Origin: Notolepis coatsorum
Lineage: Eukaryota > Chordata > Actinopteri > Aulopiformes > Paralepididae
Direction of reading: 5' to 3'
Length of the DNA: 64,000 nt
Assembly (NCBI GenBank): GCA_963971535.1
Contig: OZ020598.1
Span: forward strand, 87,192,185-87,256,184
Positions 14,873-49,600 of this stretch are shown here, piece by piece (within the stretch, counting starts at the first letter, position 1; every line of letters starts with the position of its first letter). The translations under genes and the position numbers were made by a program. The notes under the pieces were generated by a model, which ran no database searches, was not told where the DNA came from, and saw only the letters and a list, made by a program, of their open reading frames with translations.

Positions 14873-14874
14873 AT

Positions 14875-17670: not shown

Positions 17671-18019
17671 TTGTTGCTTGTAGTTACATAATGCCTGCTT
17701 GTAGTTATCTAACAACTGCTTGTAGTTATCTAATGCAGGCCTGCTTGTAGTTATCTAATAACTTCTTATCTAACGCCTGGTTGTAGTTATCTAACACCTG
17801 CTTGTAGTTATCTAACACCTGCTTGTAGTCATCTAACAACTGCTTGTAGTTATCTAACACCTGCTTGTAGTCATCTAACAACTGCTTGTAGTTATCTAAC
17901 AACTGCTTGTAGTTATATAATGCCTGCTTGTAGTTATCTAACGCCTGCTTGTAGTTATCTAACACCTGCGTGTAGTTATCTAACACCTGCATGTAGTTAT
18001 CTAACAACTGCTTGTAGTT
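17671..18019 (+). repeat. 21-bp minisatellite, block 1
   Basis: The unit is CTAACRCCTGCTTGTAGTTAT. Position 6 of the unit and its neighbours vary to give CACCTG, CGCCTG or CAACTG. The left edge is degenerate. The block ends at TGTAGTT, where DIRS copy 1 begins. This is the first of eight blocks of what was once a single array (17671-49600). Confidence 0.95.
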
Positions 18020-18215
18020 ATATTATCATACTGGTCATCGCGTTTCGCTCTTTGCCATTATGAGATAACTCTTATCTCCTAGCACCTACTGTGCTCATGA
18101 ACAAACAATTTGCACTCATGCACGTGACCAGGCCACGCTCCTGTGTCCTGCTATAAGACGCCGGACATGGTCACACTCTACCTTCCTCTTTTTTGTTTCC
18201 AACATGGACGTTGCA
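18020..18215 (+). repeat. Left inverted terminal repeat, DIRS copy 1
   Basis: Begins after the shared GTT with ATATTATCATACTGG. Its reverse complement, with small changes, is found in the right terminus (about 23366-23545). The first 45 bases are also found reversed in the ICR. Confidence 0.88.
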
Positions 18216-18794
18216 GTGAACTCCGTGAACTAGTTGTTATGAAACGCAGGGAGAAATTACACAATGTTGGGTTTTCGCCGGAGGTTCACCAGCCCCAGGA
18301 ATCTTCTCGGCACATCCTAAACAGCGCATCAGGCCTGTCCTGGGGTTTCCTCATCTCGTGACAGCGGATCGAGGGACGTCGCGCGACGGTAGCAGTCGAG
18401 CTTCGTCGCGCACAGGTAGGCCTGCGTTGTCAGGCATTGATACTAGCATGAGTAATACTGCTCGTTGTCCCGTGAGACAGCCGTGTGATGTATTGGCGCG
18501 AGGGGCAGGATATTTTGGAAAACATGGTCGTCATGACTCTGTTTTGGGTGTTTTCCCAACTATCCTAGTGCTTGCGGCTAATGCTAATGCTACAATGCTG
18601 GGTCTCCGTTCTAAAGAGGGCTGTCTTTACTAAAAGGTCTTCCCTCCTCTTAACCATTCATGCTGACGGTCAATCGGTGTCTAATATTGGGGGTTTTGAC
18701 GGGGGCTTGTTTACCATTTCATGGGTGGATGGGCTGAGGCTCAGGGCTGGTGTGCTTTTTGTGAATCTATGAATTGTGTGCAGGACTGGTGTTT

Positions 18795-18882
18795 TTCTCT
18801 GGTCTGCATCCCCTTAACAGTTGTGTGTATGGGCTAGCCCATTCTGCAGTGTGTTAGTGGAGTTTTCGTTCATTTATTCATT
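18795..18882 (+). mobile_element. LINE 3' tail fossil inside DIRS copy 1
   Basis: TCTGGTCTGCATCCCCTTAA followed by a CCATTCTGCAGTGTGTTAG block and a TTCATTTATTCATTT tail matches the LINE tail family at 4900-4968. Similar fossils lie at the corresponding places in copies 2 and 4, so the tail was probably carried by the DIRS lineages. Confidence 0.65.
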
Positions 18883-18964
18883 TACCCCTTCATGGGTGCA
18901 CACCACAGTGGAGGTTGCTGCATACCTACTAGTGAGGCAGTGCTTCACTAGTAGTTGTCTTTTT

Positions 18965-19437
18965 TTTTGTGATCCACTTTTTCTCCCATTTTCTATATTT
19001 TCTCCCATCCCAATTTCGTATCATCCAATTCAACCCTCCCCTGTCACGAACGCTGTTTCTTGCCTCCCACAAGCCGGCTGCAATGTGGACTAAGTCATAC
19101 ATAGCACAAGTCCCCTCCGGTACTTGAGGTAACAGCAGTCGCATCTTTTCACCTGCGCAGCTCGATCTCTCAGTGGCGAGGAGTAACGCGTGGGAGGCTC
19201 ACGCTGCCCCCGACACTTCCTGATTCCACTGCGCAGGCGCACCAACCGACCTGTAGGAGTCGCTGTCCACAACGCCCGATCCCCACCCATCAGTTTCCCA
19301 CCCCCTAATACCAATGTGTATTAGTACGGACGACCAGCTAAACTGAAAGCAATGAGGAGCGCTGGGCTCGAACAGGCAAGCCCAGCGTCTCCGTCATTCG
19401 TGGCGAGCGCCTTGCCCACTACGCCACGTAGCCGCCC
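18965..19437 (-). mobile_element. tRNA-derived SINE inserted in DIRS copy 1
   Basis: A minus-strand copy of the SINE at 5292-5769, with the same tRNA-like head (B-box-like GTTCGAGCCCA on the minus strand) and a poly(A) tail that appears here as T8-9. It is flanked by the 18-bp duplication CACTAGTAGTTGTCTTTT at 18946-18963 and 19438-19455. It inserted after DIRS copy 1 was in place. Confidence 0.9.
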
Positions 19438-19742
19438 CACTAGTAGTTGTCTTTTGTCTGCAGCCACCACTGGTGCTCCATGCTTGTGAAGCAGGTGGCA
19501 TCAGTCCTTTGCCTCTGACATGGTGGAACGGTGTCCCGGTGGCTGGTGGGCTGTTAAAGCCTATACCGCCGCGGTATAGAATTAGCAGCGTTTGGCAACA
19601 TTGTTCGAATTGCTGTTTTTTCTGTCAAAAATGGTGTCGGGTGGTGGGGCCTTAGGGCCAGCCGACGTCAGAACATCGCGCAAGGTTTTGAGGTTATTAG
19701 CTTTTGACCTAGCCGCAAGCTATAACCGCAGGGAGGGCTAGG

Positions 19743-20105
19743 ATGCTGTCAACGCTTGTTCACAGGCATCTTTGGTTGGATCAGTCTCCCCTTGAGGAGG
19801 AGAGAAGGTTTTTTCCCTCCTCAGGGCTCCCCTCTCCGCAGAGGGACTTTGGTCTTTCCGCAGGAGCGCGGGCGGTATTTGACCTAGGCCCCACACCGCC
19901 TCACACCACGCAGCCAGAGGTGAGGGCGCAGCCTCGCCAGCGGCTGTGGCAAGGCCCCCAACAAGCGGCCATGTTTCCCCCGCCTGAGGTACCCTGGACA
20001 CAAAGACAACAGGTGATCGCAAGGCCGACAGCCTTGGCGGCCGAGGGATCGGCTACATTAGATAAGCACGCCCTAAAAAAAACGTTGCCGTCTAGCTGTG
20101 TCTAG
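19743..20105 (+). pseudogene. DIRS copy 1 Gag C-terminal remnant
   Basis: A short open frame starts with a region containing HRHLWLDQSPLEEERR. This resembles RHLWLEQARVPEKKR at the end of the Gag-like frame of copy 4 (near 45090-45150), and on that basis I assign it to Gag. The rest of Gag is missing or replaced. The downstream frame is not conserved enough to assign. Confidence 0.5.
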
Positions 20106-20959
20106 CTCGCTCTCCGGTCACTCCCCCCCCCAACACCAGCGGGATACGGGCTCTGATTTGTTCCTTTTGGCTGCGGGCCGCGTGCCTTCAGTGAAGCACG
20201 AGCGGCCCCACGTTTCGCTTCTCATGGGGACAGGGGTTGACACCCAGTTGCTGGCTATGCTGTGCTGTCAAGCGGCTCCCACGCCACACATTCTGCGTCT
20301 GTGTTTGGTGAGCCTGGTGTTGTGTCTGTCAACGACGAAGGTTGTCAGCGGGGGAACTCGAGGCCCAGGGGGTTGCAGCGTGAGTTCCCCCAGCCCCGCC
20401 CTCGCCAGGCCGGGAATCACGTTAGTGCCTCCCATGGCCGGAAGACTGGCGATGGTCAGTCAGGCGTGCGTGATTTGGGTGGTAGTAATATCACTGCAGG
20501 GCTACGGTGTGTAGGAACCCACCCTATCGGGCAGTGTGGGGACCTCACGCCTTGCATGTCCAGCTGTAGAACAGTTCCTCAGCAGTCCATGCCGGGGAGG
20601 TGTTCAGTGGGGGAGCTTTTGTCACCCAGTGTGATGTCAGCTTCCCCCGTATCAAACCGGCCCTTTCTGTCGGGGTCCCCCCTTGGGTGCGATTGCCTCG
20701 TTGGTAGTGTCAGGGTGCGATATCCCAGCTCCACAAGACGGCCTGCTCGCGCATTTGTCGAGTCCAGGGTGGGCAACGCACAGCGGGTGGGACCGGGCCG
20801 CCTATCTACGGTTCCTGGCGGACCAGCGGCAAGTGGCGGCGGGTGCGCTTGGGATTATCATCACATATGGCTACAGCAGTGCCATATGTCGAGGTGGATG
20901 GGGAGAACGCTGAGGCGGGGACTTGTGTTGCAGTTTGCACAACCCTACCCTCCGTTTTC

Positions 20960-21440
20960 AGGTTCGGTGCAGACCCTATTGTCAGGGTCAACAGCAGTGA
21001 CAGCTCTGGTCGACGAGATCCAATCTCTGTTGGCGAAGCAAGCCATCGTCGTGGTCCCAAAGGAGGACGCGATGCGTGGCGTTTCCTCCCGGTATTCTCT
21101 GGTGCCCGAGAAATCGGAGGGGGGCGGGTGTCAGACCCATACTGGACCTGTCCCATGGAAGGTTCAGAATGTTGACCGTCTCCCACCTGTTAGACGCTGT
21201 CAGGTTGGGGACTGGTTCACCTCCATAGACCTGTAGGATGCGTATTCGCATCCCAATCTTCCATCCTAGGGCTTACCTACGCTTCCTTTGCAGGGCTTAG
21301 CATACGAGTACCAGAGGCTGCCGTTCGGCTGCTCTCTGGCTCCCCGCATCTTCACCAAGTGCGTGGAGACCGCGCTGGGGCCTCTGCGTCGTCTGGGGTT
21401 ATGAATTGTATTCTGCCCTGGACGACGTTCTGGTCCTTGG
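20960..21440 (+). pseudogene. DIRS copy 1 reverse transcriptase remnant
   Basis: Read across frames, this shows a DIRS-type RT: ALVDEIQSLLAKQAIVVV, then GDWFTSIDL, a stop codon (TAG) where a lysine is usual before DAY, two frame changes around the HPRAYLRF region, then GLAYEYQRLPFGCSLAPRIF and TKCVE. An LDDVLVL block at 21418-21438 is the expected catalytic LDD box. The same stop and frame changes are present in copy 2 at 27175-27235. The enzyme cannot be made from this copy. Confidence 0.85.
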
Positions 21441-21689
21441 CCGGTCAGGATAGATCCCCAGGTCTCATACCAGGCAGGTGGTGTCTCACCAGCCTGGGTT
21501 TTGCTGTAGACTGGAAGTAGAGTTGTCCTCTTCCCAGTCAACGGGTGGAGTACTTGAGTTTTTTCTAAGCTCAAGGTCTATATGGGCATCCCTCTCGGAG
21601 CGGCGAGTGGTTGGTTCTCGGCGAGCTCGGGAGGTTCCGTCCTAGGACGGTTACGGCGCTGTCCGTGATGCGCCTGCTGCTGGGGTCCC

Positions 21690-21850
21690 TCTTGGCCTCC
21701 TCTTCATGAGGAGGATACAGAGGTGGTTTTTTCCAGTATGGAAACACAACGTCAGCGTCGTATATTGTCAGACAGGGAGGAGTGCGCTCCCCCTGTCTGC
21801 ACCGGGCGGCGGTCGGACCCTGGCTATGGGCGTTCTCCATCTGCTCTGGC
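21690..21850 (+). pseudogene. DIRS copy 1 RNase H remnant
   Basis: A short stretch reads like the end of the RNase H domain of DIRS elements, with an acidic patch followed by a RQGGVRSP-like motif near 21770-21800. It is broken and lies between the RT and recombinase remnants as expected. Confidence 0.55.
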
Positions 21851-22229
21851 TGAGGGCTCTCCACATCCCCAGCAGGGAGAATGTGGGTGCAGGTGTGATG
21901 TCGCAGGGCGGTCCTCACCCTGACGAGTGGGGACTACGTCCAGACATAGTCAGGCAGGTCTGGGACCGATTCCGTGGCCGCCCGGGATTCTGTACGCATT
22001 CCCCCCTTACACCTGATAGCTCAGCTGTTGGGGCGGGTACGTCGGGAGCGCAGGACTTGGTCCTGGTCGCACCAGGCCGGGGCTCAGGTGTGTGGTCCCC
22101 GGCCCTGATTCAGCTCTTGGTGGTCCTGCCATGGCCTGTTCCGTGGTCACCGCGGGCCCTCTCTCAGGCACGCGGAACTCTGTTCTGCCTCCTGTTCTGG
22201 CGCAGCCTCTAGGCTTGGCTGCTGACAGT

Positions 22230-22997
22230 GTGAATCTGGTGGGGATGCGTCTTGACTATTCTGTGGTTAACGCTATCCGGTACGCGCGCGCCCCGTCCTC
22301 TACCGCGGCTTACGCTGGGGAGTGGCGTATGGTCGAGTGTGGGGGCGGAACATTGTTCAGCCACCCTCTCGTGGAACATTCCTGCTTGGCGCTTGGCGTC
22401 TCAAGCCTGTGGAACGTTCTCTGTCTCCGGGTGGGACCTCCAACTGGTCCTGGGCCGGTTGTCGGAGGCCCCGTTTGAGCCTCTTGAGCAGGCTCCATTG
22501 AAGAATGCGTTCTTTTTGGCCATCACCTCTGCTAAATGCGTGGGTGAGCTGTGTGCTCTCTCTGTGCGGCCTGAGTGCCTGTCTATTCGGCCGATAGCAG
22601 TGCGACTCTGAGGCCTAATCCAGTCTTCGTGCCAAAGAATATCCGGAGCTCTTTTTGCTCCAGGGATATTGTGATTCAGGCGTTTCATCCGCCTCCTCAC
22701 ACTAGTGGGTTAGAGGCAAGCCTTCATCTGTCGTGTTGTGTCCGTGCATTGGGGGTTTATCTCAGTCGGACGCAGGATCTCAGGGCTGCCGATCAACTAT
22801 TTGTTATGGTGGCCCTCGCGCAGGTGGCCCTCGTGGAGTGGAGGCCTCTGCCGCCTTGTTAGGGGGGGCCTCGGTGGAGGACATCTGTGCTGCGGCCTCC
22901 TGGTTCTCTCCGGGTCCCTTCGTTAAGTTTGACCTCATGGACATGACTGGGGGTGTTGTCTCCCAGGCGGTTATGAGGTCTGGGACCTCCCCTGCGT
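22230..22997 (+). pseudogene. DIRS copy 1 tyrosine recombinase remnant
   Basis: Fragments in several frames match the recombinase of copy 2 (28090-29040): PSSTAAYAG, the block around ITSAKCVGELCALSVRPECL, and GGASVEDICAAASWFSPGPF. The first catalytic Arg region (SAKRVGEL in copy 2) reads SAKCVGEL here. The region with the HxxR motif is deleted. The position where the nucleophilic Tyr is expected reads FVKFDLMDM. The protein is dead. Confidence 0.75.
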
Positions 22998-23244
22998 CCC
23001 GCCAGTTGGTGGGCTAGCAGGGGTGTGTGCCACGGGGTGCTGTGTCACACGTGGTCCCGCCTGTACTGTGCGTTTTCAGGGGTCTTTGGTTCCCCCTTTT
23101 TCCGCACTTTGGTGGAGTTGACTGCCTCCCCCCCTTCATTAGGATGGGCGGGTGGACGGGACTCCCCTCCTCCCTGGTAGTGGGGCTTACGGGCCCTCAG
23201 GGGGTACACTTGTCGGGTCACACGTCTGCTCTGACCCGTATCTC

Positions 23245-23345
23245 ATAATGGCAAAGAGCGAGACGCGATGACCAGTATGATAATATAACGAAAGGTTATC
23301 CTATAACCTAGTTATATGAATACTGGCAGAGCGTCTCGCTCTTAG
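23245..23345 (+). repeat. ICR of DIRS copy 1
   Basis: The first half is the reverse complement of the element's left end, and the second half the reverse complement of its right end. At the join, GATAATATAACGAAAGG is the reverse complement of CCTTTCGTT (right end) joined to ATATTATC (left end). This is the internal complementary region that DIRS elements use to make a circular DNA. It matches this copy's own ends nearly perfectly. Confidence 0.9.
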
Positions 23346-23365
23346 CGCCCTCAGGTCCCTTGGTT

Positions 23366-23585
23366 GGGTTTTCAGTGTTGGAAACTTTTTTACGAGGAAG
23401 GTAGAGTGTGACCATGTCCGGCGTCTTATAGCAGGACGCGGGGCGTGGCCTGGTCACGTGCATGAGTGCAAATTGTTTGTTCATGAGCACAGTAGGTGCT
23501 AGGAGATAAGAGTTATCTCATAATGGCAAAGAGCGAGACGCTCTGCCAGTATTCATATAACTAGGTTATAGGATAACCTTTCGTT
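23366..23585 (+). repeat. Right inverted terminal repeat, DIRS copy 1
   Basis: Inverse of the left repeat, plus a right-end extension containing AGGTTATAGGATAACCT and ending CGTT. The AGGTTAT/ATAACCT dyad next to the crossover GTT is conserved in all five DIRS copies. Confidence 0.88.
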
Positions 23586-23724
23586 ATCTAACACCTGCTT
23601 GTAGTCATCTAACAACTGCTTGTAGTTATCTAACAACTGCTTGTAGTTATCTAACACCTGCTTGTAGTTATCTAACAACTGCTTGTAGTTATCTAACACC
23701 TGCTTGTAGTTATCTAACGCCTGC
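23586..23724 (+). repeat. 21-bp minisatellite, block 2
   Basis: About 6.5 units of the CTAACRCCTGCTTGTAGTTAT repeat between DIRS copy 1 and the DIRS 3'-end fragment. It resumes at ATCTAAC directly after the element's GTT. Confidence 0.95.
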
Positions 23725-24175
23725 CCTCCATTAGGGTGGGTCGGGGGGGCTCGGCCCTCCCTGGTCTGATGGTTGTGGGGGGCCTCAGCAGGGTACATTT
23801 GTCGAGCTTCTAGCTCCCGCTCAGCTCCTATTATGCATGAAACGCTGAGCGTGAGCTAAGTGTGATACAGAACGTTAGGTTATGACTATAACCAAGTTCT
23901 GTTAACACTTAGTGAACGCTCAGCGTCTACTCTAGACGCTGCTGCAGGCCCTTGATTTTTCATTGTGGTGAAATTTGTTGGGAAGGAGATGAGTGTGTGG
24001 CACCATCCCTGCTTATATAGGTAAGCGGATGGGGGTGTGGCCAGATGAATGCTGGCATTTAAAGGTACATTTGTGAAATTATTCAGTGTATATATGCTGA
24101 AGCAAGATATATGCATGAAACGCTGAGCGTTCACTAAGTGTTAACAGAACTTGGTTATAGTCATAACCTAACGTT
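23725..24175 (+). mobile_element. Third DIRS lineage, 3'-terminal fragment
   Basis: Only the 3' end remains. It starts with the CCCTCCATTAGGG block also present in copies 3 and 4, then an ICR (about 23830-23935) and a right terminal repeat (about 23940-24175). It ends TCATAACCTAACGTT at 24175, with ATCTAAC of the minisatellite following. The left junction (GCCTGC|CCTCC) is a truncation rather than a normal end. The ICR implies a left end different from copies 3 and 4, so this is a separate family within group B. Confidence 0.85.
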
Positions 24176-24384
24176 ATCTAACACCTGCTTGTAGTTATCT
24201 AACACCTGCTTGTAGTTATCTAACGCTGCTTGTAGTTATCTAACAACTGCTTGTAGTTATCTAATACCTGCTTGTAGTTATCTAACGCCTGCTTGTAGTT
24301 ATCTAACAACTGCTTGTAGTTATCTAACGCCTGCTTGTAGTTATCTAACACCTGCTTGTAGTTATCTAACGCCTGCTTGTAGTT
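24176..24384 (+). repeat. 21-bp minisatellite, block 3
   Basis: About 10 units between the DIRS fragment and DIRS copy 2. It ends at TGTAGTT (GTT 24382-24384). Confidence 0.95.
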
Positions 24385-24590
24385 ATATTTCGTATTGCAT
24401 CGCGTCCCGCTCTGAGCCTTACGAGATACTCCTATCTCCTGTGATACCTAATGTATCTCCCACGAACAAAAACACATGCACCCCACCTGTATGGGGCCCC
24501 GCCCCTTATGGTGGCACCGCCCATATAACCATGACCCTGGTCATGAAACACCCTTCCTCTATTTTCGTCCCAGCGTATTGGATGCGTGCA
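24385..24590 (+). repeat. Left inverted terminal repeat, DIRS copy 2
   Basis: Includes CGTCCCGCTCTGAGCC near the end and a stretch holding CATATAACCATGACCCTGG. The inverse occurs at about 29415-29600. Confidence 0.88.
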
Positions 24591-26929
24591 CCATACGAGC
24601 TAGCGGAATGAAAAGATTAAGGAAGATTAATAATGTTGGAAGCTTACCGGAGGTTGCTGGCCCCTGGCATCTTCGACGCATGTTTTCGGCGACACGACGG
24701 GCCTGTGATGTTCCTCGTTTGATGACTGCACATCGAGGTTCAGCTGTACAAGGCTGGCTGTCGGGCCAGCTTGTACTCAGGTAGGCCCTGTGTCTTCAGG
24801 CATGGGTATTAGTGTTAGTAATGCTGGTTTGTGTTGTTAACACAACCTTGTTGTGTGTTGGCGCCAGGGGCAAGATGGTTTGGTGAACGTTCTCTGCAGG
24901 GAACGGTTTCCAAGCTGTCTTGGGCGTGCTGCTAAAACATCTAAAGCTATGCTAACATGCTATCGCTACTGCCGCATGCTATCACTACTGCTCCCATCTG
25001 GGTTGGCGTCGGGTAGTGGGGCTATGGGTCCAGCCGACATGGTAAACATGTTGCGTGTCTGTGCACAGGCAATTGTTGTCTTGGGTTCCACATTGCCTGG
25101 CGTTAGGCTGCAGTAGAATAAGGGCAGGGCCGCTTGGGGGAAATGTGAGGCCCTGTGCGTTTTTAGACGCGAGGCCCCCCATCTCCTGGGGCGGCCCTGT
25201 GTAGGGGGCTATTGTTTCATTTTGTCACTCTGCTATGAGAAGGTCTGTCTTGCTACAGCTTTCTCTCCTCTCAAACCATTCATACTGACGGTCAATCGGT
25301 ATACTGGGGGAGTAGTGCGGGGGGGGGGCTTTGTTTACCTTTTTTGGTAAATGGGCTAAACTAGGGCTGGTGTTCTGTTGTGAATATTTTGAATGAAGAC
25401 GGGTCTGGTCCGTCTCCCCTTAAACTTTGTGTGTATGGGTTTGCTCATTCTACAGTTTTTGTGGTTTAGCTCTTTTATTCATTTAACCTTTTCATGGTCC
25501 ACACCACAGTGGAGGGTGCTGTTTGCAATCACCACTGGTGCTCCATGTTAACGTCAGTCCTTTGTTTTTGATATATTGAAACAATGCCCCGCCCGGCCGA
25601 CACCATGGGTCGGCCTGGCGAGTGGCTGGTGGGCTGTTAAGGCTTGTACCGCCACGGTATGGAATTGGCAACGATTAGAACTGTGTTCGAATTGGTGTTT
25701 TTTCTATTAAAGAAATGGTGTCTGGTGGAGGGGCCTTGAGGGCCGGCCGACGTCGACACATCGCGCAAGGTTGTTGACGTTATTAGCTTTGACCCAGCCG
25801 CAAGCTATAACCGCTCAGGGTTCCCCTCTCCGCAGGGGATTTTGGTCTTCTGCTGGAGCGCGGGCGGTATTGTCCTAGGCCCTACACCGCCTCACACCGC
25901 GCAGCCAGAAGAAGAGAGAGCACGGCCTCGTCAGCGGCGATGACGGGGCCCTCGACGGGCGGCCATGTTTCCCCCGCCAGTGGTGCCCTGGTTGGAGAAT
26001 CGACAGGGTATCGCGAGGCCGACAGTCTTGGCGGCCGAGGGATCGGCCATTTTGGGTGATTTCGGTGTTGGTAAACCACTCCGTCGTCATTTTGCCGCGA
26101 GCAGCCCGCTCCCCGCTCAGTCCGTTTTCTGTTACCCTCAGAAGCGGGGCTCTGGGTGTGTTCCTTTGGCTGCGGGCCGCGAACCTTCTTGAAGCGTATG
26201 CGGCCCCATTCTTCGCTTCTCATGGAGACAGGGGCTGACACCCAGTTGATGGCTGAGCCTGGGTCTGTCCGTGAGAATGTTGTGCTGTCAAGCGGCTCCC
26301 ACACCTTGAACTGTGTTGGTTGAGCCTGGTGTTACGTCTGTCAACTTAAGTGTTGTCAGCAGGGGGGCTCGAAACCTTTTGAGGCACACAGTGCGGGCTT
26401 CCCCGGCCTCGCCTTCGCCAGGCCAGGTATCATGTTGGTGCTCCCACTCCTGGAATATTGGCAAGTGGTCGCAGCTCACATGGTTTGGGGTGGTAGTGAT
26501 ATCACTGCAGGGCTACGGTGTGTAGGAACCCATGGGGGCCTTACACCTTGCATGTCCGGCTGCAGAACAACTCCTTCAGCATGTTCTGGAGGGGTGTTCA
26601 GTGGGGGGGCTTTTTTGATCGGAAGCCCCCCGTATCAGACAGGCCCTTTTCTGTCGGGGTTCCCCCTTGGGTGCGATTGCCTCGTGGGTGGTGTCAGGGT
26701 CAGGTGTTCCGACACGGAACGCGCTCCTCGCACGATTCCAGGGTTGTCTTCGCACAGCGGGGGGGACCGGGCCAACTATCTACAGTTCCTGGCGGACCTG
26801 CGCCACGTGACGGCGGGTGCGTTGGGAGTGTCGTCACATATGACTACGGCAGTACCATATGTCGAGGTAGATGGAGAGAATGGTGAGGCGGGGACTTGTG
26901 TTTACACAACCCCACCCGTTTTCAGGTTT

Positions 26930-27360
26930 GGTACAGACCCTGTTGTCGGGGTCTCCAGCAGGGACAGCTCTGGTCGACGAGATCCAATCTCTGTGGACGA
27001 AGCAAGCCATCGTCGTGGCGTTCTCCTCCCGGTGTTCTCTGCCCGAGAAGTCGGGAGGGAGGGGTGTAAGACCCAGGCTGGACCTGTCCCATGGGAAGGT
27101 TCAGCATTTTTTGGATCGTCTCCTACCTGTTGAACACTGTCAGGTGGGGGTCTGGTTCTCCTCCATAGACCTGTAGGATGCGTATACGCATCCCCGATCT
27201 TCCATCCTAGGGCTTACCTACGCTTCCTTTGCAGGGTTAGCGTATGAGTACCAGAGGCTGCCGTTCGGTTTTCTCTGGCTCCCCGCATCTTCACCAAGTG
27301 CGTGGAGGCCGCACTGGGGCCTCTGCGTCATCCGGGGTTACGGAGTGTTCTGCCCTGATG
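26930..27360 (+). pseudogene. DIRS copy 2 reverse transcriptase remnant
   Basis: Contains ALVDEIQSLWTKQAIVV, a VRPRLDLSHGKVQHF stretch, WFSSIDL followed by the same TAG stop as copy 1 (27174-27176), then AYEYQRLPFG and TKCVEA, with frame changes at the same points as copy 1. A DDVLVL motif at 27357-27374 corresponds to the catalytic DD box. Confidence 0.8.
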
Positions 27361-27559
27361 ACGTTCTGGTCCTTCGCGGTCAAGGTGGATCGTCAGGTAT
27401 CGTACCAGGCAGGTCTCTACCAGCCTGGGGTTGCTGTAGACTGGATGTAGAGTATTCCTCTTCCCAGTCAACGGTTGGAGGGCTATGGGCATCCATCTCA
27501 GAGCGTGTTGTCAACACGCTCGGGAGGTTCCGTCCTAGGACGGTTACGGCGCTGTCTCA

Positions 27560-27830
27560 CGTCGCGTTTTCACCGACGCCTCCCTCGCTGGTGATGCGTC
27601 GGGCCAACGCAGTAGGGGGCAGCTGGCAAACCATGCTGCCCGGTCTGCGCTACGTTCAATGTGTTGGTGTTGAAAGCGGTCCTTCTGGTCCACAAATGGT
27701 GTTGATCAGGACGGACGATACGACGTCAGTGTCGTGTATCGACAGACAGGGAGGAGTACGCTCCCCCTGTCTGCACCAGGCGGCGGGCGGCTGGCTATGG
27801 GCGTCCTCCATCTGCGCGGCCTAAGGGCTC
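27560..27830 (+). pseudogene. DIRS copy 2 RNase H remnant
   Basis: The frame reads VLIRTDDTTSVSCIDRQGG and further, resembling the C-terminal part of the DIRS RNase H domain. An AFSPTPPSLVMRRANAVGGS stretch lies upstream, where the first catalytic Asp segment is expected but altered. It lies between RT and YR as usual. Confidence 0.6.
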
Positions 27831-28089
27831 CCCACATCCCCGGCAGGGAGAATGTGGGTGCAGGTGTACTGTCGCGGGGCGGCCCTCATCCTGACGGGTG
27901 AGGATTGCGTCTGGACATGGCCAGGCAGGTCTGGGACCGATGCCGTGCCGCCAGGGATTCTTCCCCATACATCTGTTAGGTCAGTTGTTGGGACGGGTAC
28001 GTTGAGGGGCGCAGGTTCTTGATCCTGATGGTGTTACCATCTGGAATGCGCATGCTCCCTCCACTGTCGCGCTTACGCGGGCAGATGAC

Positions 28090-29043: not shown

Positions 29044-29267
29044 CAGGAGTGTATGGGTATGGGCCGCAGTGTGTTGAGTCACACGTGGTTCCGCCTGTAC
29101 GGTGTGTTCAAGGGGTTCTGGCTCCCTCTTGTTCGCATTCAGGTGGAGTTGACTGCGCCCCCCCTTCGTTAGGAAGGATGGGGTGACAGGGCTCCCCGCA
29201 CCCCTTGATGTGGGCTTACGGGTCCTCAGGGGGTACATCTGTCGGGTCTCGCGCCCGCTCTTCCCCA

Positions 29268-29375
29268 TTATCTCGTAAGGCTCAGAGCGGGACGCGATGC
29301 AATACGAAATATAACGATAGGTTATGTAGATAACCTAGTTATATTAGTATTGGCTAAGCGTCCCGCTCTGCGCGC
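29268..29375 (+). repeat. ICR of DIRS copy 2
   Basis: Contains GCAATACGAAATATAACG followed by ATAGG, the reverse complement of the right end (CCTATCGTT) joined to the left end (ATATTTCGTATTGC). It matches this copy's own ends, not those of copy 1, so copy 2 was formed from its own circle. Confidence 0.9.
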
Positions 29376-29399
29376 CCTGAGTTCCCTCTTGAGGGATCT

Positions 29400-36377: not shown

Positions 36378-36537
36378 GTTGTCTTTTGATATAGTTAGTA
36401 GAAGGTCTTATCAATACATACGATGTGGTCTAGTCTCTTTTGGTATTGTCCAAATAAGGTTTTTAAACGAAATTAACGATAACGGGAGCGGAGCTATAAC
36501 CAATTGCGTGCGCTACATATTGCAGCTTAACCGGAAG

Positions 36538-40500: not shown

Positions 40501-40943
40501 GAGATGGGGGTTTTTCCTCTTCCGGCGACCACATCCCATGACCTGGGTGGGTTGTCGACGGATTCTCGTTCATGTCTGGGGGATGATGACGGGATGGATC
40601 TGAACATATGTAGTGGGGTCTCACGCCCTTGGGGTGGGCCGCCAGGCGCGGTTCGTCCCGACGTCTGGGTGGCGCCTTCTTTTCATGTTAAGATCAACAC
40701 GCATATCTGCCCTTCTCCTGGAGTAGGCATGTCGGCGTGGTTAGGGCACGGGACTGGTTCTGGTCACGCTGGTCCGGATCAGTTGAACCCGTTGTCCGCC
40801 GGGGATGCAGATCTGCTGTTCTGGTACCCTGAGGGACTTGGGCTTTTTTCAGGGGGAAAAATGCCAGGTCGGTCTGGGTGTCACAGGGTTAAGCGCTATG
40901 GAGACCCTGGTTGGGTATGTTTTTACTCAGCACTGTCGTCATG

Positions 40944-41063
40944 GCTTACAGCCATGCCATTCTGTACGCGCTCGATCTCGTCGGATCTCGGCCGCTACAC
41001 AGGTTGGTCCTGGTTAGTACTTGGTTGGGAGACCGCCGGGGAATACCGGGTACGGTGTGCTTA
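40944..41063 (+). pseudogene. 5S rRNA-derived segment in DIRS copy 3 (first)
   Basis: About 120 bp aligning along the full 5S rRNA: GCTTACAGCCATGCC at the start, CTCGATCTCGTCGGATCTCG in the middle, CTGGTTAGTACTTGGTTGGG over the internal promoter, GAGACCGCCGGGGAATACCG, and a GTGCTTAGG end. Helix-disrupting changes (for example GGCCGCTACACAGG where AAGCTAAGCAGG is usual) argue against a working rRNA gene. The copy at the same place in DIRS copy 4 shows the segment was already in the group B ancestor. Confidence 0.88.
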
Positions 41064-41722
41064 GGGGCTGGTTCTCCATAATTTTTCGCTCCTCTCTCAC
41101 GCATGGCGAAGAGGGGCCTGTGGGGGTGGTTTTTTGACCTCCTCTGGTGACCCTGTGCTTCCCGTACCGCCAGGCCCGGTCCGAAGTGATGTTTGCGACC
41201 CGTAGGCCTGGGTTAACCCTTTTTGGAAACTGAAACACTTGTACTGCGGTATAGCCGGTGTATACCCGCAGGTGTGTTTTGGAGTTTTTTCTTGAGGGGT
41301 TATAGGAACAACCACCGCATTGGGTAACACCGAGGTGGTTGATTCCCTGGTGTGTTGGAGCAGTGTCAACTCCCGGGTTCACCGGTTGAGGGTGCCCCTG
41401 CACGTTCATGACGTCTGCCAATCGTGTCAGCCTTCTCTGCCTCGACCCCTCTGGGTGGGGGTTGTTAAATGGAGGCTTGGTCATGCAACACCGCCAGCTT
41501 ACGCTCCTTCCGCCGGGGCGGCTGTGTTCAGCTGTCCCCTCTGGCGCCTGTCTCGTCCGCAGTCTCCAGGCTAGGGTTAACAGCCTGTTGCCTGGTTTTT
41601 CCCCGGTGCGCTGCCTGCTTCCGTTGGTTAACCTTTTTTGTGTGCTTACGGCCATGCTGACTGCCTATTCTGCAGGGTCAGTGTGCCAGGCGGTGTACTA
41701 TTGGGGGGACGGGGCCCGCTCG

Positions 41723-41825
41723 GCTTACGGCCATACCGACCTGGACACGCCCGGTCTCGTCCGATCTCGGAAGCTGGGCAGGTTCTGGCCTGGTTGGTTC
41801 CGCCTGGGAATACCAGGTGCAGTAA
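41723..41825 (+). pseudogene. 5S rRNA-derived segment in DIRS copy 3 (second)
   Basis: GCTTACGGCCATACCGACC, then GTCCGATCTCGGAAGCTGGG, GGCCTGGTTGGTT and GCCTGGGAATACCAGGTGC match 5S rRNA closely, better than the first segment. About 15-17 bp over the internal promoter (the AGTACTTGGATGGGAGA region) are missing. The flanking DIRS sequence in copy 4 (47560-47575) has no insert. Confidence 0.9.
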
Positions 41826-42309
41826 CTGAGGGGCCTTTGTCCGAATACGCTGGCGATGTGGGGGGCGGGGCACTACGTGCCCACCTGGTGGGGTCTTGAT
41901 GCTGGCATCATGGACTTCTCCGGGCCCCCATTCCAGGGAGTCCAGTCCTTTTGGTGGGTCTGGGTCTTCCTTCGTGCTCCGCTGCTACGGCCTTGCCACG
42001 GGGTTGGGTTTGCCCTTGACCCCGTGATTCTGGGGGCAGTAACGAGGTTGTTCCTCCGTTCGTTCCCGGGTGGCATGCGGGTTGTGCGTGTGTGTAGTCG
42101 TGGGGTCAGGCCACGGTCTGCTCACCCTGTGCGTTGAGTTGCTTGAGTGCCTCTTCGCACGGTCGGGTCCGTCGCCCTCCCGTGACGTCCCTAATAGGGG
42201 GGCTACCCTCCATTAGGGGGGGTCGGGGGGGCTCGGCCCTCCCTGTTCTGATGGTTTTGGGGGGCTGTCAGCGGGGTGTATTTGTCAGCCAAGTGGCTCC
42301 GCTTGGCCT

Positions 42310-42415
42310 CCCTTGTGCAGAAGGCGATGCCAAGCTAAGCCACTAACGATACAGAACGTTAGGTTATGACTATAACCAAGTTCTGTTAGTTAGGGGCGAT
42401 GCTTGGCATCGGACG
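42310..42415 (+). repeat. ICR of DIRS copy 3
   Basis: CCACTAACGATACAGAACG followed by TTAGG is the reverse complement of the right end CCTAACGTT joined to the left end CTGTATCGTTAGTGG. Again it is specific to this copy's own ends. Confidence 0.9.
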
Positions 42416-42439
42416 CCGCTGCAGCCCTTGTCCTCACCT

Positions 42440-42649
42440 TGTGGTGAAAGCTTGGGAAGGAGGAGAGCAGGTGACCACACACCTGCTTATGAAGGTAAGC
42501 TGATGAGGGGTGTGGTCAGACTAATACTGGTATTAGAGGTACATTTGTGGTTTATTCAGTACGCGTGCACGTACGCGAGATAGTGCAGAAGGCGATGCCA
42601 AGCATCGCCCCTAACTAACAGAACTTGGTTATAGTCATAACCTAACGTT
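42440..42649 (+). repeat. Right inverted terminal repeat, DIRS copy 3
   Basis: Inverse of the left repeat, then an extension holding TGGTTATAGTCATAACCT and ending AACGTT. Confidence 0.88.
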
Positions 42650-43549
42650 ATCTAACACCTGCTTGTAGTTATCTAACGCCTGTACCTGCTTGTAGTTATC
42701 TAACGCCTGCTTGTAGTTATCTAACACCTGCTTGTAGTTATCTAACGCCTGCTTGTAGTTATCTAACACCTGCTTGTAGTTATCTAACGCCTGCTTGTAG
42801 TTATCTAACGCCTGCTTGTAGTTATCTAACGCCTGCTTGTAGTTATCTAACAACTGCTTGTAGTTATCTAACGCCTGCTTGTAGTTATCTAACACCTGCT
42901 TGTAGTTATCTAACGCCTGTACCTGCTTGTAGTTATCTATCGCCTGCTTGTAGTTATCTAAAGTCTGCTTGTAGTTATCTAACACCTGCTTGTAGTTATC
43001 TAACGCCTGCTTGTAATTATCTAACAACTGCTTGTAGTTATCTAACACCTGCTTGTAGTTATCTAACGCCTGCTTGTAGTTATCTAACACCTGCTTGTAG
43101 TTATCTAACACCTGCTTGTAGTTATCTAACACCTGCTTGTAGTTATCTAACGCCTGCTTGTAGTTATCTAACACCTGCTTGTAGTTATCTAACGCCTGTA
43201 CCTGCTTGTAGTTATCTAACGCCTGCTTGTAGTTATCTAACACCTGCTTGTAGTTATCTAACGCCTGCTTGTAGTTATCTAACACCTGCTTGTAGTTATC
43301 TAACGCCTGCTTGTAGTTATCTAACGCCTGCTTGTAGTTATCTAACGCCTGCTTGTAGTTATCTAACAACTGCTTGTAGTTATCTAACGCCTGCTTGTAG
43401 TTATCTAACAACTGCTTGTAGTTATCTAATGCCTGCTTGTAGTTATCTATCGCCTGCTTGTAGTTATCTAAAGTCTGCTTGTAGTTATCTAACACCTGCT
43501 TGTAGTTATCTAACGCCTGCTTGTAATTATCTAACAACTGCTTGTAGTT
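42650..43549 (+). repeat. 21-bp minisatellite, block 6 (largest)
   Basis: About 43 units between DIRS copies 3 and 4, ending at TGTAGTT (43547-43549). Three units carry a 6-bp insert giving GCCTGTACCTGC. There is also a higher-order pattern: a run with TATCTATCGCC, then TATCTAAAGTC, occurs twice (about 42937-43030 and 43446-43538), suggesting internal segmental duplication of the array. Confidence 0.97.
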
Positions 43550-43735
43550 CTGTTCCGTTAGGGGCTCTGCTTGGCATCACTACTGCACTCCCTCGCGTAC
43601 GTGCACGCGCACTGAATAAATTCCACAAATGTACCTTTAATACCAGTATTAGTCTGACCACACCCCTCATCAGCTTACCTTCATAAGCAGGTGTGTGGTC
43701 ACCTGCTCTCCTTCTCGCTTTCACCACAAGGAAGT
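43550..43735 (+). repeat. Left inverted terminal repeat, DIRS copy 4
   Basis: Starts CTGTTCCGTTAGGGGC and ends in TTTCACCACAAGGAAG. Inverse at about 48180-48350. Confidence 0.88.
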
Positions 43736-43851
43736 GCCTCGGTAGTACCCCACTTGACGTGTTGTTAGTTGAAAAGAGTTGTGACTGGTTTACATTGTGC
43801 TTAATCTTTTCTTCTCTCACTTTCGTTGTACAAGAAAAGGTTTGGGTCATA

Positions 43852-45158
43852 ATGTATTCCGCGGAGAGTAGACCCGCTAGACCTACTCTTCACCACCGGT
43901 TCTCCATTCCCGCCTCCGTTGTGCGCCTCGGTGCTGGGCTGTTGCCACTCTCGTGGTTGCCGACCCAGCCCGGGAGACTGCCGGTGGATAGTTTTCCTCA
44001 CCGAAGAGCCGAGGGGTCGGTGCCGTCGCTCCGGCGATGGCCTGATCTCGACTCTGGTTCCTCTGGTTCTGGGGAATCGCCCGTTGGTGAACGGGGGGTT
44101 GTTCTGGAGCCGGAGGATTTGCGATGCAAACTTTTCGCCTCTGCTCGCTCGCGTCGCAAGATGGTGGCGTGCAGACGCGAACGGCCTGGGTTTGGGGAGC
44201 TGCTGGAGACCAGCGAAGATGCGTCCGGCTCGGGATTTCCGATGGAGACTGAGGACTTCATGGACGAGGCAGACGGATTTTTGTTTGATGGCCCCGTGGA
44301 GGAGAGTATCCCTCCTCAGGAGACCCCGGAGGGGGGGGAAATGGCTCCATGGGGCGCCCTGTTCGAGGATGTCGAGGAACCACCTTGGCCTCAGCAGCAG
44401 GATGCCCTATTGTCGGCCGCATCGGATTGTGGCTCCTTGACCAGTCGCAGCCTGCTGTATGTGAGGGGTCGGTGGAGGAAGGTTCGCAGGGGGAACTGCG
44501 GGCCTTGTTTCCCGAGCTCATGGCGGTAGCCGCTACCGCAAACGGTGTGCCGCTGCCGCTGCCATTGCCTGCACCTGTCCCTGATGACCTCATAGGCCAT
44601 CGCTGGCAGCGTCCCCCAGTGAGAGGGGTGGACGTTGTCTACCCATTTTTCCCATCGATGGGGGCCTATGTTCGTCGGGGTCAGGCGGTGGCCAACATCA
44701 TGGGACTAACTCCTACCTACGTACCGGTTACGCGGGTAGCAGGGTTGGTCAAAGGTATGGGGGAGGGCGTGCCTCGGCTTGACAGTCCGATGGCCACGCT
44801 CCTCTGTCCGGATATGGTGTGGGAGCCACTGTGCAAGCCGGTCCTCCAGGGGAAATCGGCTAGGCGATTGGCTTATTGGGGTGACCAGTCATTTATCGCT
44901 GGTACACAATCGCTGGCTGCGGCGTCTAACATCGCCCACCTGGCTAGATTTGTATCGGGGATAATGACGGGCGGCACGGATCTGACCGAGGTGAAATGTG
45001 ATCAGATCACCCAGGCTGCGGGAGCTGTCCTGCATCTTTCCCAGGTGCTGGCCATAGCCATGGGGAAAGTGCGCGCCCTGGCCACCCTGGGCCAGCGTCA
45101 CCTTTGGCTGGAGCAGGCCCGTGTGCCAGAGAAGAAGAGAGCAACGTACACTCGGTAA
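43852..45158 (+). pseudogene. Gag-like frame of DIRS copy 4, one frame change
   Basis: Starts at ATG 43852 (MYSAESRPARPTLHHRFS). The first frame runs to 44529 and contains an acidic region (DFMDEADGFLFDGPVEE). The second frame, open from before 44349 to 45158, carries GVDVVYPFFPSMGAYVRRGQ, DMVWEPLCKPVLQGKSARRL, ITQAAGAVLHLSQVLAIAMG and RHLWLEQARVPEKKR. The two frames overlap by about 180 bases, so either a mutation or a frameshift near 44400-44480 is needed to join them. No zinc knuckle is seen. I assign Gag from its position first in the element and from the RHLW(L)(D/E)Q block shared with copy 1. Confidence 0.6.
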
Positions 45159-46014
45159 TAGGTTCTATTTAGCTTGATGCTCCACATGCAGCTAGAACTG
45201 GTGTTATTCCATTGCTTTGACTAAGTATATGTGTTTTCACAATGCTGTGTTGTTTGGTTGCAGTAATACTTGTACGCACACATTTCACGGCCTAGCCGCT
45301 TACTCTCGTTCAGCGTGTTTTTCCTATGTATGACATAGGCAACGGGTATAGGATTCACGCACAGGCGACTTGTGTTTTGTTGTAAAACCTTTTACACTTT
45401 TTGTGGGTAGCGGGCATTGTATTAGCTTCGCTATGCTTTGTTTTCTACCGGAGGTTTTTCAAGATGGCTACGGTTGTTTTTCTGTGTGTAGGGATAAAGG
45501 GTGTGTTTCGGGAGGGGGTGTCGAATAAACCCCTCCTTCCCCACTTGATTGGTTTAGGGGATTTTTGATATTTTCTGCTGAGCCAGTCAGGGCCAAGCCA
45601 GTGCTTGACAGGGGGGGGGGGGGGAGGGGTATTCTACCGACTCCTGTTACATGACAGGATCCGGTAGGTTTTCCCCGCCCGTTGTAGCGTTGTTGCTATG
45701 GCGACGCCTTCCATGAGCTGGTGTCTTAAAGATGTCGAGGTTGGGCGCAGGGCTCACAGGCCTGCTGCGCCCGGTTTATGTGTCAAACTTGAGTCTTTTG
45801 GTCACGTGTCTCACAGTTTACATATCTTTTTTCTTGACCGTGGTCTCATGTGGGAAGGTGTTTCTGGGAGGGTCTGGTCTTACACTCTGATTAAAAGGAG
45901 TGACTGGATTGAAATCATGTGAAAAACAGGGTTTTTTACTCCCAGCTGTGCAGATTGGGTCATACGGGTGATGCCTTTTCTTTATTTGTATAAAGAGTTG
46001 AATGTGTTTTGATG

Positions 46015-46160
46015 GATTGGAAATGAGGGTCCCTGATGGTAACAAGACTAAACGTCTTTCTCAGGTCTGCCTCCCCTTAACCTGTTGTGTGTATTGCCGT
46101 ACTGGGTTGTACCCTTTTCTGCAGTCTGTTGGGTAAATTTTTTCATTCATTCATTCATGG
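46015..46160 (+). mobile_element. LINE 3' tail fossil inside DIRS copy 4
   Basis: ATGAGGGTCCCTGATGGTAA, a TCTGCCTCCCCTTAACC block, CTTTTCTGCAGTCTGTTGGG and (TTCA)n match the window's LINE tail family in plus orientation. Confidence 0.65.
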
Positions 46161-46785
46161 AGTTGATTGCATCTCGCCCCTCTTGTCGTTTCCCTGGGCG
46201 TCTTGGGGATTCAATATGGTGGTCTAAACGACCTGTTGTTGATGTGGGTATGTCCAAACGCACACATAGTGCTGGCTCAGGATGTGCTTTTGGGCCATTG
46301 GCTGACTAGCGCGCCTTGATTGCTTGGGTGAAACAGCGTTTTTATGGAGCAATTGGGATGGGGTTTTTTTCCTCTTCCGACACCCTGTGTGTTGTCGATG
46401 GGTTCCCGTTCATGTCAGGGGATGATGACGGAATGGGTCTGGACATATGGGGAAGGGTCTCACGCCCTAGGGGTGGGCCACCGGGCGCGGTTCATACCGA
46501 CACGTCTGGGTGGCACCTTCTTTTTTATGTTGGGATCAAACACGCATATCTGCCCCTTCTCCTGGGGTTGGCAGGTCGGCGTGATTAGGGCACGGGACTG
46601 GTTCTGGTCGCGCTGGTCCAGTCCAGTTGCACCCGTTGTCCGCTGGGGATGCAGATCTGCTGTTCTGGTACCCTGAGGGACTTGGGGTTTTTTCAGGGGG
46701 AAAAATGCTGGGTCGATCCGGGTGTCACAGGGTTGAGCGTTATGGGACCCTTGTTAGGTGCGTTGTATTCTGCACTGTCGTAATG

Positions 46786-46904
46786 GCTTACGGCCGTGCC
46801 GACCTGTACGCGTCCGATCTCGTCGGATCTCGGCCGCTGTGCGGGTTGGTCTTGGTTGGTACTTGGTTGGGTGACCTCCTGGGAATACCGAGTGCAGGGT
46901 GCTG
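46786..46904 (+). pseudogene. 5S rRNA-derived segment in DIRS copy 4
   Basis: GCTTACGGCCGTGCCGACC, GCGTCCGATCTCGTCGGATC, TTGGTTGGTACTTGGTTGGG and CTCCTGGGAATACCGAGTGC align along the whole 5S rRNA. It sits at the place equivalent to the first segment of copy 3 and shares its TCGGATCTCGGCCGCT variant, so both descend from one capture. Confidence 0.88.
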
Positions 46905-48059
46905 GGGCTGGTCTTCCATTTTTTACGCTCTTCTCTTGCGTTTGATGCTGAGGGGCCTGTTGGGGTGGTTTTAACCTCCTCGGGGGACCCTGTGCTCCCC
47001 GTATCACCGGGCCCGGTCCGGGGTGATGCTCGTTGACCCGTAGGCCCGGGATAGCCCTGTTGGAAACCAGAACGCGGGCTGCGGCGGTGCCGCAGATGTG
47101 TTTTGGGGTTTCTTTCCTGGGGGTTATGGGACCAACCATTGCATGGGGTGATGCCTGGGTGGTTGGTTCTCTGGTGTGTTGCTGCAGTGTCAACTCCCGG
47201 TTCTCCGGTTGAGGGTGCCTCTGCACGTTCATGACGTCTGCCGATCGTATGGGCTTTTTCTGTGTGCAGCTGTCAGGGGTCGAGTGGTCTAAGGATCCCG
47301 CTTCTGACATGCTGTTTAAAGGCTTGGTTATGCGACAACGCCAGTTTACGCCCCTTCCGCCGGGGCGGCTGTTTTTCAGCTGTCCTTTCTGGCGCCTGCC
47401 TCGTCCGCAGTTTCCAGGCTTGGGTTGACAGCCTGTTGCCTGGTCTTTTTCCCCGGTGCGCTGCCTGCTTCCTTGGTTAACCTTTGTGTGTTATGACCAT
47501 ACTGTCTGCCTGTTGCAGGGCCTGTGTTCCAGGCGGTGTGCTGTTGGGGAGGACAGGGCCCGCTCGCCTGAGGGGCCTTTGTCCGAATGCGCTGGCGATG
47601 TGGGGGGCGGGGTCACTAGGTGCCCACCTGGTGGGGTCTTGATGCTGGCATCATGGACTTCTCCGGGCCCCCATTCCAGGGAGTCCAGTCCTTTTGGTGG
47701 GTCTGGGTCTTCCTTCGCGCTCCGCTGCTACGGCCTTGCCACGGGGTTGGGTTTGCCCTTGACCCCGTGATTCTGGGGGCAGTGACGAGGTTGTTTCCTA
47801 CGTTCGTTCCCGGGTGGCATGCGGGTTGTGCGTGGGTGTAGTCGTGGGGTCAAGCCACGGTCTGCTCACCCTGTGCGTTGGGTTGCTTGAGTGCCTCTTC
47901 GCACGGTCGGGTCCGTCGCCCTCTCGTGAAGCCCCTAATAGGGGGGATGCCCTCCATTAGGGGGGGTCGGGGGGGCTCGGCCCTCCCTGTTCTGATGGTT
48001 GTGGGGGGCTGTCAGCGGGGTGTATTTGTCAGCCAGCGGCTCCGCTTGGCCTCCCTTTG

Positions 48060-48165
48060 TGCAGTAGTGATGCCAAGCAGAGCCCCTAACGGAACAGAAC
48101 ATTAGGTTATGGCTATAACCAAGTTCTGTTAGTTAGGGGTGACGCTTGGCATCAGACGGCCGCTG
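48060..48165 (+). repeat. ICR of DIRS copy 4
   Basis: CCCCTAACGGAACAGAAC followed by ATTAGG is the reverse complement of the right end joined to this copy's left end, with one base changed from a perfect match (ACATTAGG for ACGTTAGG). Confidence 0.88.
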
Positions 48166-48179
48166 CAGCCCTTGACCTC

Positions 48180-48394
48180 ACCTTGTGGTGAAAGCTTGGG
48201 TAGGAGGAGAGCAGGTGACCACACACCTGCTTATGAAGGTAAGCTGATGAGGGGTGTGGTCAGACTAATACTGGTATTAAAGGTACATTTGTGGAATTTA
48301 TTCAGTGCGCGTGCACGTACGCGAGGGAGTGCAGTAGTGATGCCAAGCGTCACCCCTAACTAACAGAACTTGGTTATAGCCATAACCTAACGTT
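48180..48394 (+). repeat. Right inverted terminal repeat, DIRS copy 4
   Basis: Inverse of 43550-43735, then TGGTTATAGCCATAACCT and final AACGTT. Confidence 0.88.
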
Positions 48395-48690
48395 ATCTAA
48401 CGTCTGCTTGTAGTTATCTAACACCTGCTTGTAGTTATCTAACGCCTGCTTGTAGTTATCTAACACCTGCTTGTAGTCATCTAACACCTGCTTGTAGTTA
48501 TCTAACGCCTGCTTGTAGTTATCTAACACCTGCTTGTAGTTATCTAACGCCTGCTTGTAGTTATCTAACAACTGCTTGTAGTCATCTAACACCTGCTTGT
48601 AGTCATCTAACACCTGCTTGTAGTTATCTACCACCTGCTTGTAGTTATCTAACGCCTGCTTGTAGTCATCTAACAACTGCTTGTAGTCAT
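48395..48690 (+). repeat. 21-bp minisatellite, block 7
   Basis: About 14 units, including several with TGTAGTCATC in place of TGTAGTTATC. Interrupted at 48690 by an L2 LINE. Confidence 0.95.
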
Positions 48691-49573
48691 CAGACAGTCA
48701 TCACAGTGGAGAATGTAGCTGTGGTTTCGCCCCTAATCGCTAAGAACCTTGGTGTAGTCCTTGACAATCGGCTGAACTTCTCTGCTCACATCGCCGCAAC
48801 AACCAGAACCTGCAGATTCCTCCTGAGCAATGTCAGAAGAATCAGCCCCTTCCTGGCAAAAGAAGCCACTCAACTCCTTGCACAATCAACAACAGTCATG
48901 TCTTGCCTCGACTACTGCAATGCACTGCTTGCTGGTCTACCGACCACCGCCACCAAGCCTCTTCAACTCATTCAGAACATAGCCGCCCGCCTGATCCCCA
49001 ACCTACCAAAGTCAGCCCATGTTACCCAACTTCTTAGAGAGCTGCACTGGCTCCCCATCACCGCACAACTCCACTTCAAGGTCCTCGACCTGGCATAAAG
49101 CGCAGTGAAGGGAACGGCTCCCACCTACCTCCGGTCAATGGTCTCTAACTACACACCCTCAAGACCCCACCGCTCTACATCTTCTGGCCACCTCAGACCC
49201 ACTCCTATCTGAGCTCCGGGAGGGTCATCAAAGAGAAGAAGTCTATTCTCGGTCCTCACTCCACAATGGTGGAACGAACTTCCCACCACAGTTAGGACAG
49301 CCGAAACACAACCAATCCTTCGCCGTCAACTAAAAACACACGTAATCAATATCTGAAATGAAATTTTTTTAAACATCATGCACTCTTCCTAATATACTAA
49401 TATGTCTCTACTACTATGCACTCAACACTGCAGCGCTCAAGTTTCAACACTCTGATGAACATTGTTACTCAGCTGAAAGAGTTGTACCCTTCCTGCTGAC
49501 TTGTCGTACATGACTTGTAAGTCGCTTTGGATAAAACATCAGCTACAGTAAATGACTCAAATGTAAATGTAAA
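48691..49573 (+). pseudogene. 5'-truncated L2 LINE, C-terminal RT region
   Basis: The frame from about 48691 to 49098 reads KNLGVVLDNRLNFSAHIAA, then TCRFLLSNVRRISPFL, then SCLDYCNALLAGLPTTATKP and LRELHWLPITAQLHFK, the familiar C-terminal part of L2-clade ORF2. A stop at 49096-49098 (TAA) and a later frame break interrupt it. The TGTACCCTTCCTGCTGACTT block and the GTAAGTCGCTTTGGATAAAA tail end in (AAATGT)n at 49573. The YADD core and endonuclease are missing. It lies inside the minisatellite, which resumes with one degenerate unit at 49574. Confidence 0.88.
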
Positions 49574-49600
49574 TCTGACGCCTGCTTGTATTTATCTAAG
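49574..49600 (+). repeat. 21-bp minisatellite, final degenerate unit
   Basis: CTGACGCCTGCTTGTATTTATCTAA-like unit directly after the L2 tail. It marks the right edge of the original array. Confidence 0.75.

Follow-up and report, generated by a model that had tools for sequence, protein, structure and literature searches.

Introduction

The DIRS1-like retrotransposons of ray-finned fish are the closest described relatives of the elements reported here; the papers cited by PMC number are drawn on in excerpt throughout. GaDIRS1, GaDIRS2 and TnDIRS1a all start with GTT, end with GTT (two of the three) or GAT (the third), and carry an AAC junction, a right extension of 26-27 bp and internal complementary regions (ICRs) of 36-46 and 56-57 bp (PMC3266345, Table 3). 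According to the model in the same source, a 3-bp joint recombines with an identical genomic sequence, leaving no target-site duplication (PMC3266345). Here we describe four DIRS1-like copies (D1 to D4) and one DIRS 3' fragment (Dfrag) that share one exact insertion site in a 21-bp minisatellite array of contig OZ020598.1 of Notolepis coatsorum (assembly GCA_963971535.1). The stretch analysed spans 64,000 nucleotides of the forward strand (87,192,185 to 87,256,184) and is hereafter called the window; all positions given below are positions within it.

Both the clustering of DIRS elements and their insertion into existing DIRS copies have already been reported in fish. Centromeric and pericentromeric DIRS1 hot spots were seen by fluorescence in situ hybridization (FISH) in nototheniids and not in outgroup fishes (PMC6387122, PMC5941688), and PMC5941688 states that DIRS elements of Danio rerio insert into existing copies, as PMC5633606 does for Dictyostelium DIRS-1. 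Beyond DIRS, tyrosine recombinase (YR) elements have been found within short tandem repeats, namely some CryptonV in microsatellites (PMC8869645) and nimaviruses in telomeric repeats (PMC10871703). These resemble the present case in their location, but they do not belong to the DIRS retrotransposons, the nimavirus recombinases have no close relationship to the DIRS enzymes, and nimavirus specificity rests on many read sets (PMC10871703) whereas ours concerns one locus. The excerpts of PMC9210276 and PMC2685390 held nothing on DIRS target sites. Among the papers listed by the literature searches, judged by title and the start of the abstract, no description of a DIRS insertion in a minisatellite was recognised. 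We know of no earlier repeat-docking DIRS system.

DIRS1-like copies at one base of a 21-bp array

The array is built of the unit TTGTAGTTATCTAAC(A/G)CCTGC and its variants, lies in eight pieces from 17671 to 49600, and measures 2,885 bp once re-joined (Table 1). It has received the four DIRS1-like copies, the DIRS 3' fragment, one L1-like long interspersed nuclear element (LINE) and one LINE-like fragment. An earlier note on this DNA had placed four DIRS-like elements and a 3' fragment in the array, with nine junctions at a single base, and this holds in full: the left junctions (18019, 24384, 37334 and 43549) and the right junctions (23585, 24175, 29623, 42649 and 48394) are base-exact, and all nine fall directly after GTT, with TTGTAGTT on one side and ATCTAAC on the other. 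GTT flanks both ends of each full copy (4/4), so the crossover may have taken place anywhere within it. Taking out the element together with one GTT restores an intact array unit, with neither duplication nor loss, in each of the four; as the empty sites rejoin exactly, a target-site duplication is absent. Dfrag, truncated on its left, contributes a right junction only.

The full copies carry the anatomy of DIRS1-like elements. All four have inverted terminal repeats (ITRs) of 158-180 bp that are 94-100% identical (blastn), and two ICRs that overlap on a 3-bp AAC junction near the 3' end, the right one of which is kept in Dfrag. The ICRs measure 42-51 and 56-60 bp; the right extension, as reckoned from blastn coordinates, measures about 25-28 bp. 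The copies thus resemble the ray-finned fish elements in starting with GTT, in having an AAC junction, ITRs, a pair of overlapping ICRs and a right extension of close to 27 bp, and in integrating without duplication, as modelled for those elements. They differ in that their coding sequence is broken and their target is one minisatellite site, a repeat target not being described in the excerpt of PMC3266345. With the nototheniid hot spots they share clustering in localised regions; those hot spots, however, are defined at the scale of FISH, with no base-level target described in the excerpts (PMC6387122, PMC5941688), whereas here the junctions are exact to the base.

Several further observations were made on the array and the copies. 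Neighbouring GTAGT(T/C)ATC sites lie 21 bp apart in 110 of the 118 intervals across all array pieces, and since 21 bp is roughly two turns of the DNA helix, they would all be on one face of it. No match to the array motif was found in collections of viral contigs or genome contigs. The group-B copies (D3 and D4) contain modules derived from 5S rRNA (Rfam RF00001, model 1-120) at 40944-41061, 41723-41828 and 46786-46903, one of them at a matching place in both copies and a second in D3 only, at a place where the alignment to D4 has a 102-bp gap. Such modules inside DIRS elements recall the Cassandra elements of plants. A 476-bp stretch of D1 (18964-19435) is 97.7% identical to an opposite-strand copy outside the array (5295-5770), so D1 carries a nested repeat. 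No tRNA was found.

Independence and age of the insertions

In the published model the ends of the element are copied from the ICRs, so that the divergence between a terminus and its own ICR dates the insertion. Nine such comparisons gave 2 mismatches in 467 bp (3 in 471 with slightly longer local alignments). Between copies, divergence amounts to 6-28%, or the sequences cannot be aligned: blastn segments are 72-86% identical between D1 and D2 (group A) and about 80-94% between D3 and D4, short 5S-derived and terminal pieces set aside, while Dfrag is 73% identical to D3 and D4. The only alignable DNA found between groups A and B (blastn, E 1e-4) was a 104-bp stretch shared by D1 and D4, itself part of a repeat that is present outside the array too. 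Moreover, nearly every column that differs between paired copies is carried by terminus and ICR alike (12 of 13 for D3/D4, 22 of 23 for D1/D2), which means that the copies diverged before they inserted. The five insertions are therefore independent, as had been claimed, and not duplicates of one. Taken with the junctions, these results make several separate, recent insertions of DIRS1-like elements at a GTT core, five in all, a reading that we hold with good confidence.

Broken coding sequence and a common right-end signal

None of the four full copies shows an intact recombinase. The gene is degenerate in D1 and D2, and D2 has HSTC and FF in place of the HSTR and Y present in all four short homologous proteins that were found for this piece; we take these two residues, Arg and Tyr, to be catalytic in tyrosine recombinases. 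One of these homologues matches Phage_integrase below threshold (20.8 bits, cut-off 27.1) and another at chance level, and the collections of genome contigs and viral contigs yielded no confirmed locus for the piece. In D3 and D4, hmmsearch detected no YR, and the sole tblastn match, in D4, was at chance level (E 0.64). No match to RNase H or methyltransferase was obtained in the three forward frames of D1 to D4, and for the DIRS pieces and frames submitted to Pfam, NCBIfam, PHROGs and PDB there was nothing beyond a weak RVT_1 match in D1 and chance-level matches. D4 retains an open piece of 289 aa (44289-45155), 30 aa of which match D1; no homologue of it was found, and presumably it is gag.

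Gap lengths are mostly not multiples of three, both between D1 and D2 (48 of 63) and between D3 and D4 (27 of 32; end gaps included). D1 and D2 are identical at 0.813 of 2303 and 0.783 of 785 bases, i.e., some 600 of the 3,088 aligned bases differ. Set against the substitutions expected since insertion, about 11 per copy per 5 kb (upper bound 39), this indicates that most of the decay preceded insertion. Judged by their sequence, the copies look non-autonomous.

Despite having almost no alignable DNA in common, groups A and B share a right-end signal of about 28 bp, AACTWGGTTAT(3-4 bases)ATAACCTNNCGTT. When the right 60 bp were compared between the groups, 0 of 500 shuffles aligned as well, in all four comparisons; neither the left 60 bp nor the next 200 bp on the right gave a better-than-shuffle alignment. 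The signal is likely to be the site that the recombinase recognises. A recombinase from outside these copies probably acted on them, and possibly one enzyme served them all: a single recombinase reading the right-end signal could place all five, and the presence of several lineages at one site would then not require that target choice evolved several times. The earlier note had held that several lineages used the site independently. This stands with respect to separate insertions; with respect to separately evolved targeting it is weakened, as the full copies show no intact recombinase and a single enzyme acting in trans could have placed them all.

We propose that the ends of each element would be rebuilt from the ICR templates, as in the published model, presumably yielding a circle with a joint containing GTT. 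A tyrosine recombinase, probably supplied in trans from elsewhere in the genome, would join the GTT of the circle to a target GTT, leaving GTT at both ends without duplication, so that the GTT core would set the exact base of insertion. The array could then serve as a local hot spot since its expendable DNA presents an accessible GTT at 21-bp intervals, and the recombinase perhaps also reads bases that flank GTT.

Phase, concentration and the nature of the hot spot

All five insertions lie in one phase of the repeat, which exceeds chance if the 21 phases are taken as equal, odds of 1 in 21 per event being those originally put forward. These odds do not survive: the published core is 3 bp long and the tabled fish elements start with GTT, and we replaced that null with one conditioned on GTT. 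Insertions now pick among the 272 GTT trinucleotides of the array on both strands, 121 of which are of the class GTAGTTATC (it includes nearly all plus-strand GTTs). Under this null, P is 0.017 for all five falling in the GTAGTTATC class and 0.019 for all five falling in any single class, i.e., about 0.02. The requirement for GTT accounts for the greater part of the positional precision.

The concentration of copies was assessed likewise. The 2.9-kb array holds its 272 GTTs against 958 in about 32 kb outside, a density about threefold higher. With GTT sites weighted equally, the probability that all five DIRS copies of the window lie inside the array is 0.0005, or 0.0002 when the GTTs within the two other insertions are counted as well; both values are post hoc, as this very feature was the reason for reporting the window. 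In the roughly 32 kb outside the array, blastn with the five copies detected no DIRS terminus, only repeat stretches that are carried inside D1 and D4. This concentration suggests, post hoc, that the array is a hot spot.

As to its cause, the explanation towards which we lean, while stopping short of calling it probable, is that DIRS inserts at any GTT and that the GTT-rich array survives insertion, so that copies persist there. The 3-bp core of the published model, the threefold GTT density of the array and the persistence of two non-DIRS insertions in it all agree with this. It nevertheless leaves the common class (P about 0.02) and the concentration (P about 0.0005) to be accounted for, and the surrounding 32 kb carries repeats and a BEL/Pao element, so it tolerates insertions too.

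A dedicated dock is a live but unproven reading, which we consider possible and view with some doubt: the recombinase would read several bases around GTT (TAGTTATCTAA), and the array would be a preferred niche, much as ribosomal DNA is for R2. The GTT-conditioned P of 0.017 and the concentration values speak for it, as does the use of the same site by two groups with a common right-terminal signal; repeat-specific YR elements, moreover, do exist in CryptonV and nimaviruses. Over the nearest 8 bases, the joints of group A match the target at 5, a level that 3.5-4.5% of 956 background GTT sites attain, but those of group B match at 3, as do 34% of background sites. Further, the sample is small and post hoc, the two LINE-type insertions raise the possibility that the array simply tolerates insertions, and Dictyostelium DIRS-1 is without apparent sequence preference in the excerpt of PMC5633606. 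More tentatively still, an extended-specificity DIRS recombinase might use the minisatellite as a shared dock that recombinase-dead DIRS families exploit in trans via their common right-end signal.

Less likely is homing, in which a first DIRS copy in the array drew in later ones. The insertion into existing copies stated for Danio rerio and Dictyostelium DIRS-1, and the hot spots of Antarctic fish, would fit such a tendency. However, none of the five copies is nested in another, array DNA lies between them, and groups A and B have little DNA similarity. Lastly, tandem arrays expand by unequal exchange, and piece 6 of the array has internal higher-order repeats (by eye), yet segmental duplication of one ancestral insertion, which the earlier note had named as one finding that would undo its claim, is rejected as highly improbable, since copies that differ by 6-28% or cannot be aligned nonetheless each have termini matching their own ICRs, unless gene conversion renewed every terminus.

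Several points weigh against our overall reading of recent, GTT-core DIRS1-like insertions into a hot spot. The data come from a single window, in which concentration was judged post hoc; the appearance of youth could also result from gene conversion between termini and ICRs; no trans-acting recombinase was seen; and the Pfam RVT_1 match, standing for reverse transcriptase, is weak (E 0.011) and confined to D1. A test for mimicry of the circle joint by the target was negative: in a comparison of 24 flanking bases, the array site shows no likeness to the elements' circle joints above that of ordinary GTT sites (4/4), and the GTT that the unit carries unused on its minus strand matches the joint equally well or better in all four copies (10 vs 7, 8 vs 8, 8 vs 7 and 8 vs 7). 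Hence the joints speak against recognition by similarity and give no positive evidence for recognition beyond GTT.

Were the array a true dock, we would have a retrotransposon of the vertebrate type that uses a short, defined target and leaves no duplication; the dock could also account, to the base, for the fish DIRS hot spots seen under the microscope, and would provide a natural site-specific recombinase target. Should the array not be one, the locus still offers a clean natural record, in which nine base-exact junctions and self-dating termini fit the model of circle integration at a GTT core, and it suggests that DIRS families continue to move although they have no working recombinase.

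Other features of the window

The coordinates of the array, its DIRS copies and its other insertions are collected in Table 1.

Table 1. Pieces of the 21-bp array and the elements inserted into it (window positions).
Feature	Position	Strand	Basis or remarks
Array piece 1 (left edge)	17671-18019	+	Tandem Repeats Finder (TRF) and sequence
D1, DIRS1-like, group A, 5563 bp, coding broken	18020-23582	+	ITR/ICR by blastn, exact termini, YR similarity
D1 degenerate recombinase	around 22501-22975	+	YR similarity
D1 ICRs	left 23239-23289, right 23287-23346	+	Overlap on circular junction AAC 23287-23289
Array piece 2	23583-23724	+	TRF and sequence
Dfrag, DIRS 3' fragment, left end truncated, right end intact	23725-24172	+	ICR 23871-23926
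Array piece 3	24173-24384	+	TRF and sequence
D2, DIRS1-like, group A, 5236 bp	24385-29620	+	ITR/ICR by blastn, exact termini
D2 degenerate recombinase	around 28388-29010	+	YR similarity
D2 ICRs	29269-29370	+	Overlap on AAC 29313-29315
Array piece 4	29621-29785	+	TRF and sequence
L1-like LINE	29786-36537	-	Open reading frames ORF2 30118-33885 and ORF1 35223-36377; flanking 12-bp duplication TCTAACACCTGC
Array piece 5	36538-37334	+	TRF and sequence
D3, DIRS1-like, group B, 5312 bp, no recognisable recombinase	37335-42646	+	ITR/ICR by blastn, exact termini
D3 ICRs	42315-42411	+	Overlap on AAC 42355-42357
Array piece 6	42647-43549	+	TRF and sequence
D4, DIRS1-like, group B, 4842 bp, no recognisable recombinase	43550-48391	+	ITR/ICR by blastn, exact termini
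D4 ICRs	48059-48154	+	Overlap on AAC 48098-48100
Array piece 7	48392-48695	+	TRF and sequence
LINE-like fragment	48696-49575		Label by eye
Array, last degenerate piece	49576-49600	+	Sequence

ORF2 of the L1-like LINE is open over 1255 aa and matches L1 ORF2p in PDB (E 4e-133); no confirmed locus for it was found in the viral contig collection. Some LINE lineages are described as targeting repeats in the excerpt of PMC8869645. Outside the array, a BEL/Pao retrotransposon (7174-16276) has 1405-bp long terminal repeats that are 99.86% identical and an open frame of 1995 aa on the minus strand. A 29-30-bp minisatellite in inverted arrangement occupies 51803-52389 and is repeated in part about 8 kb away, at 60439-60544.

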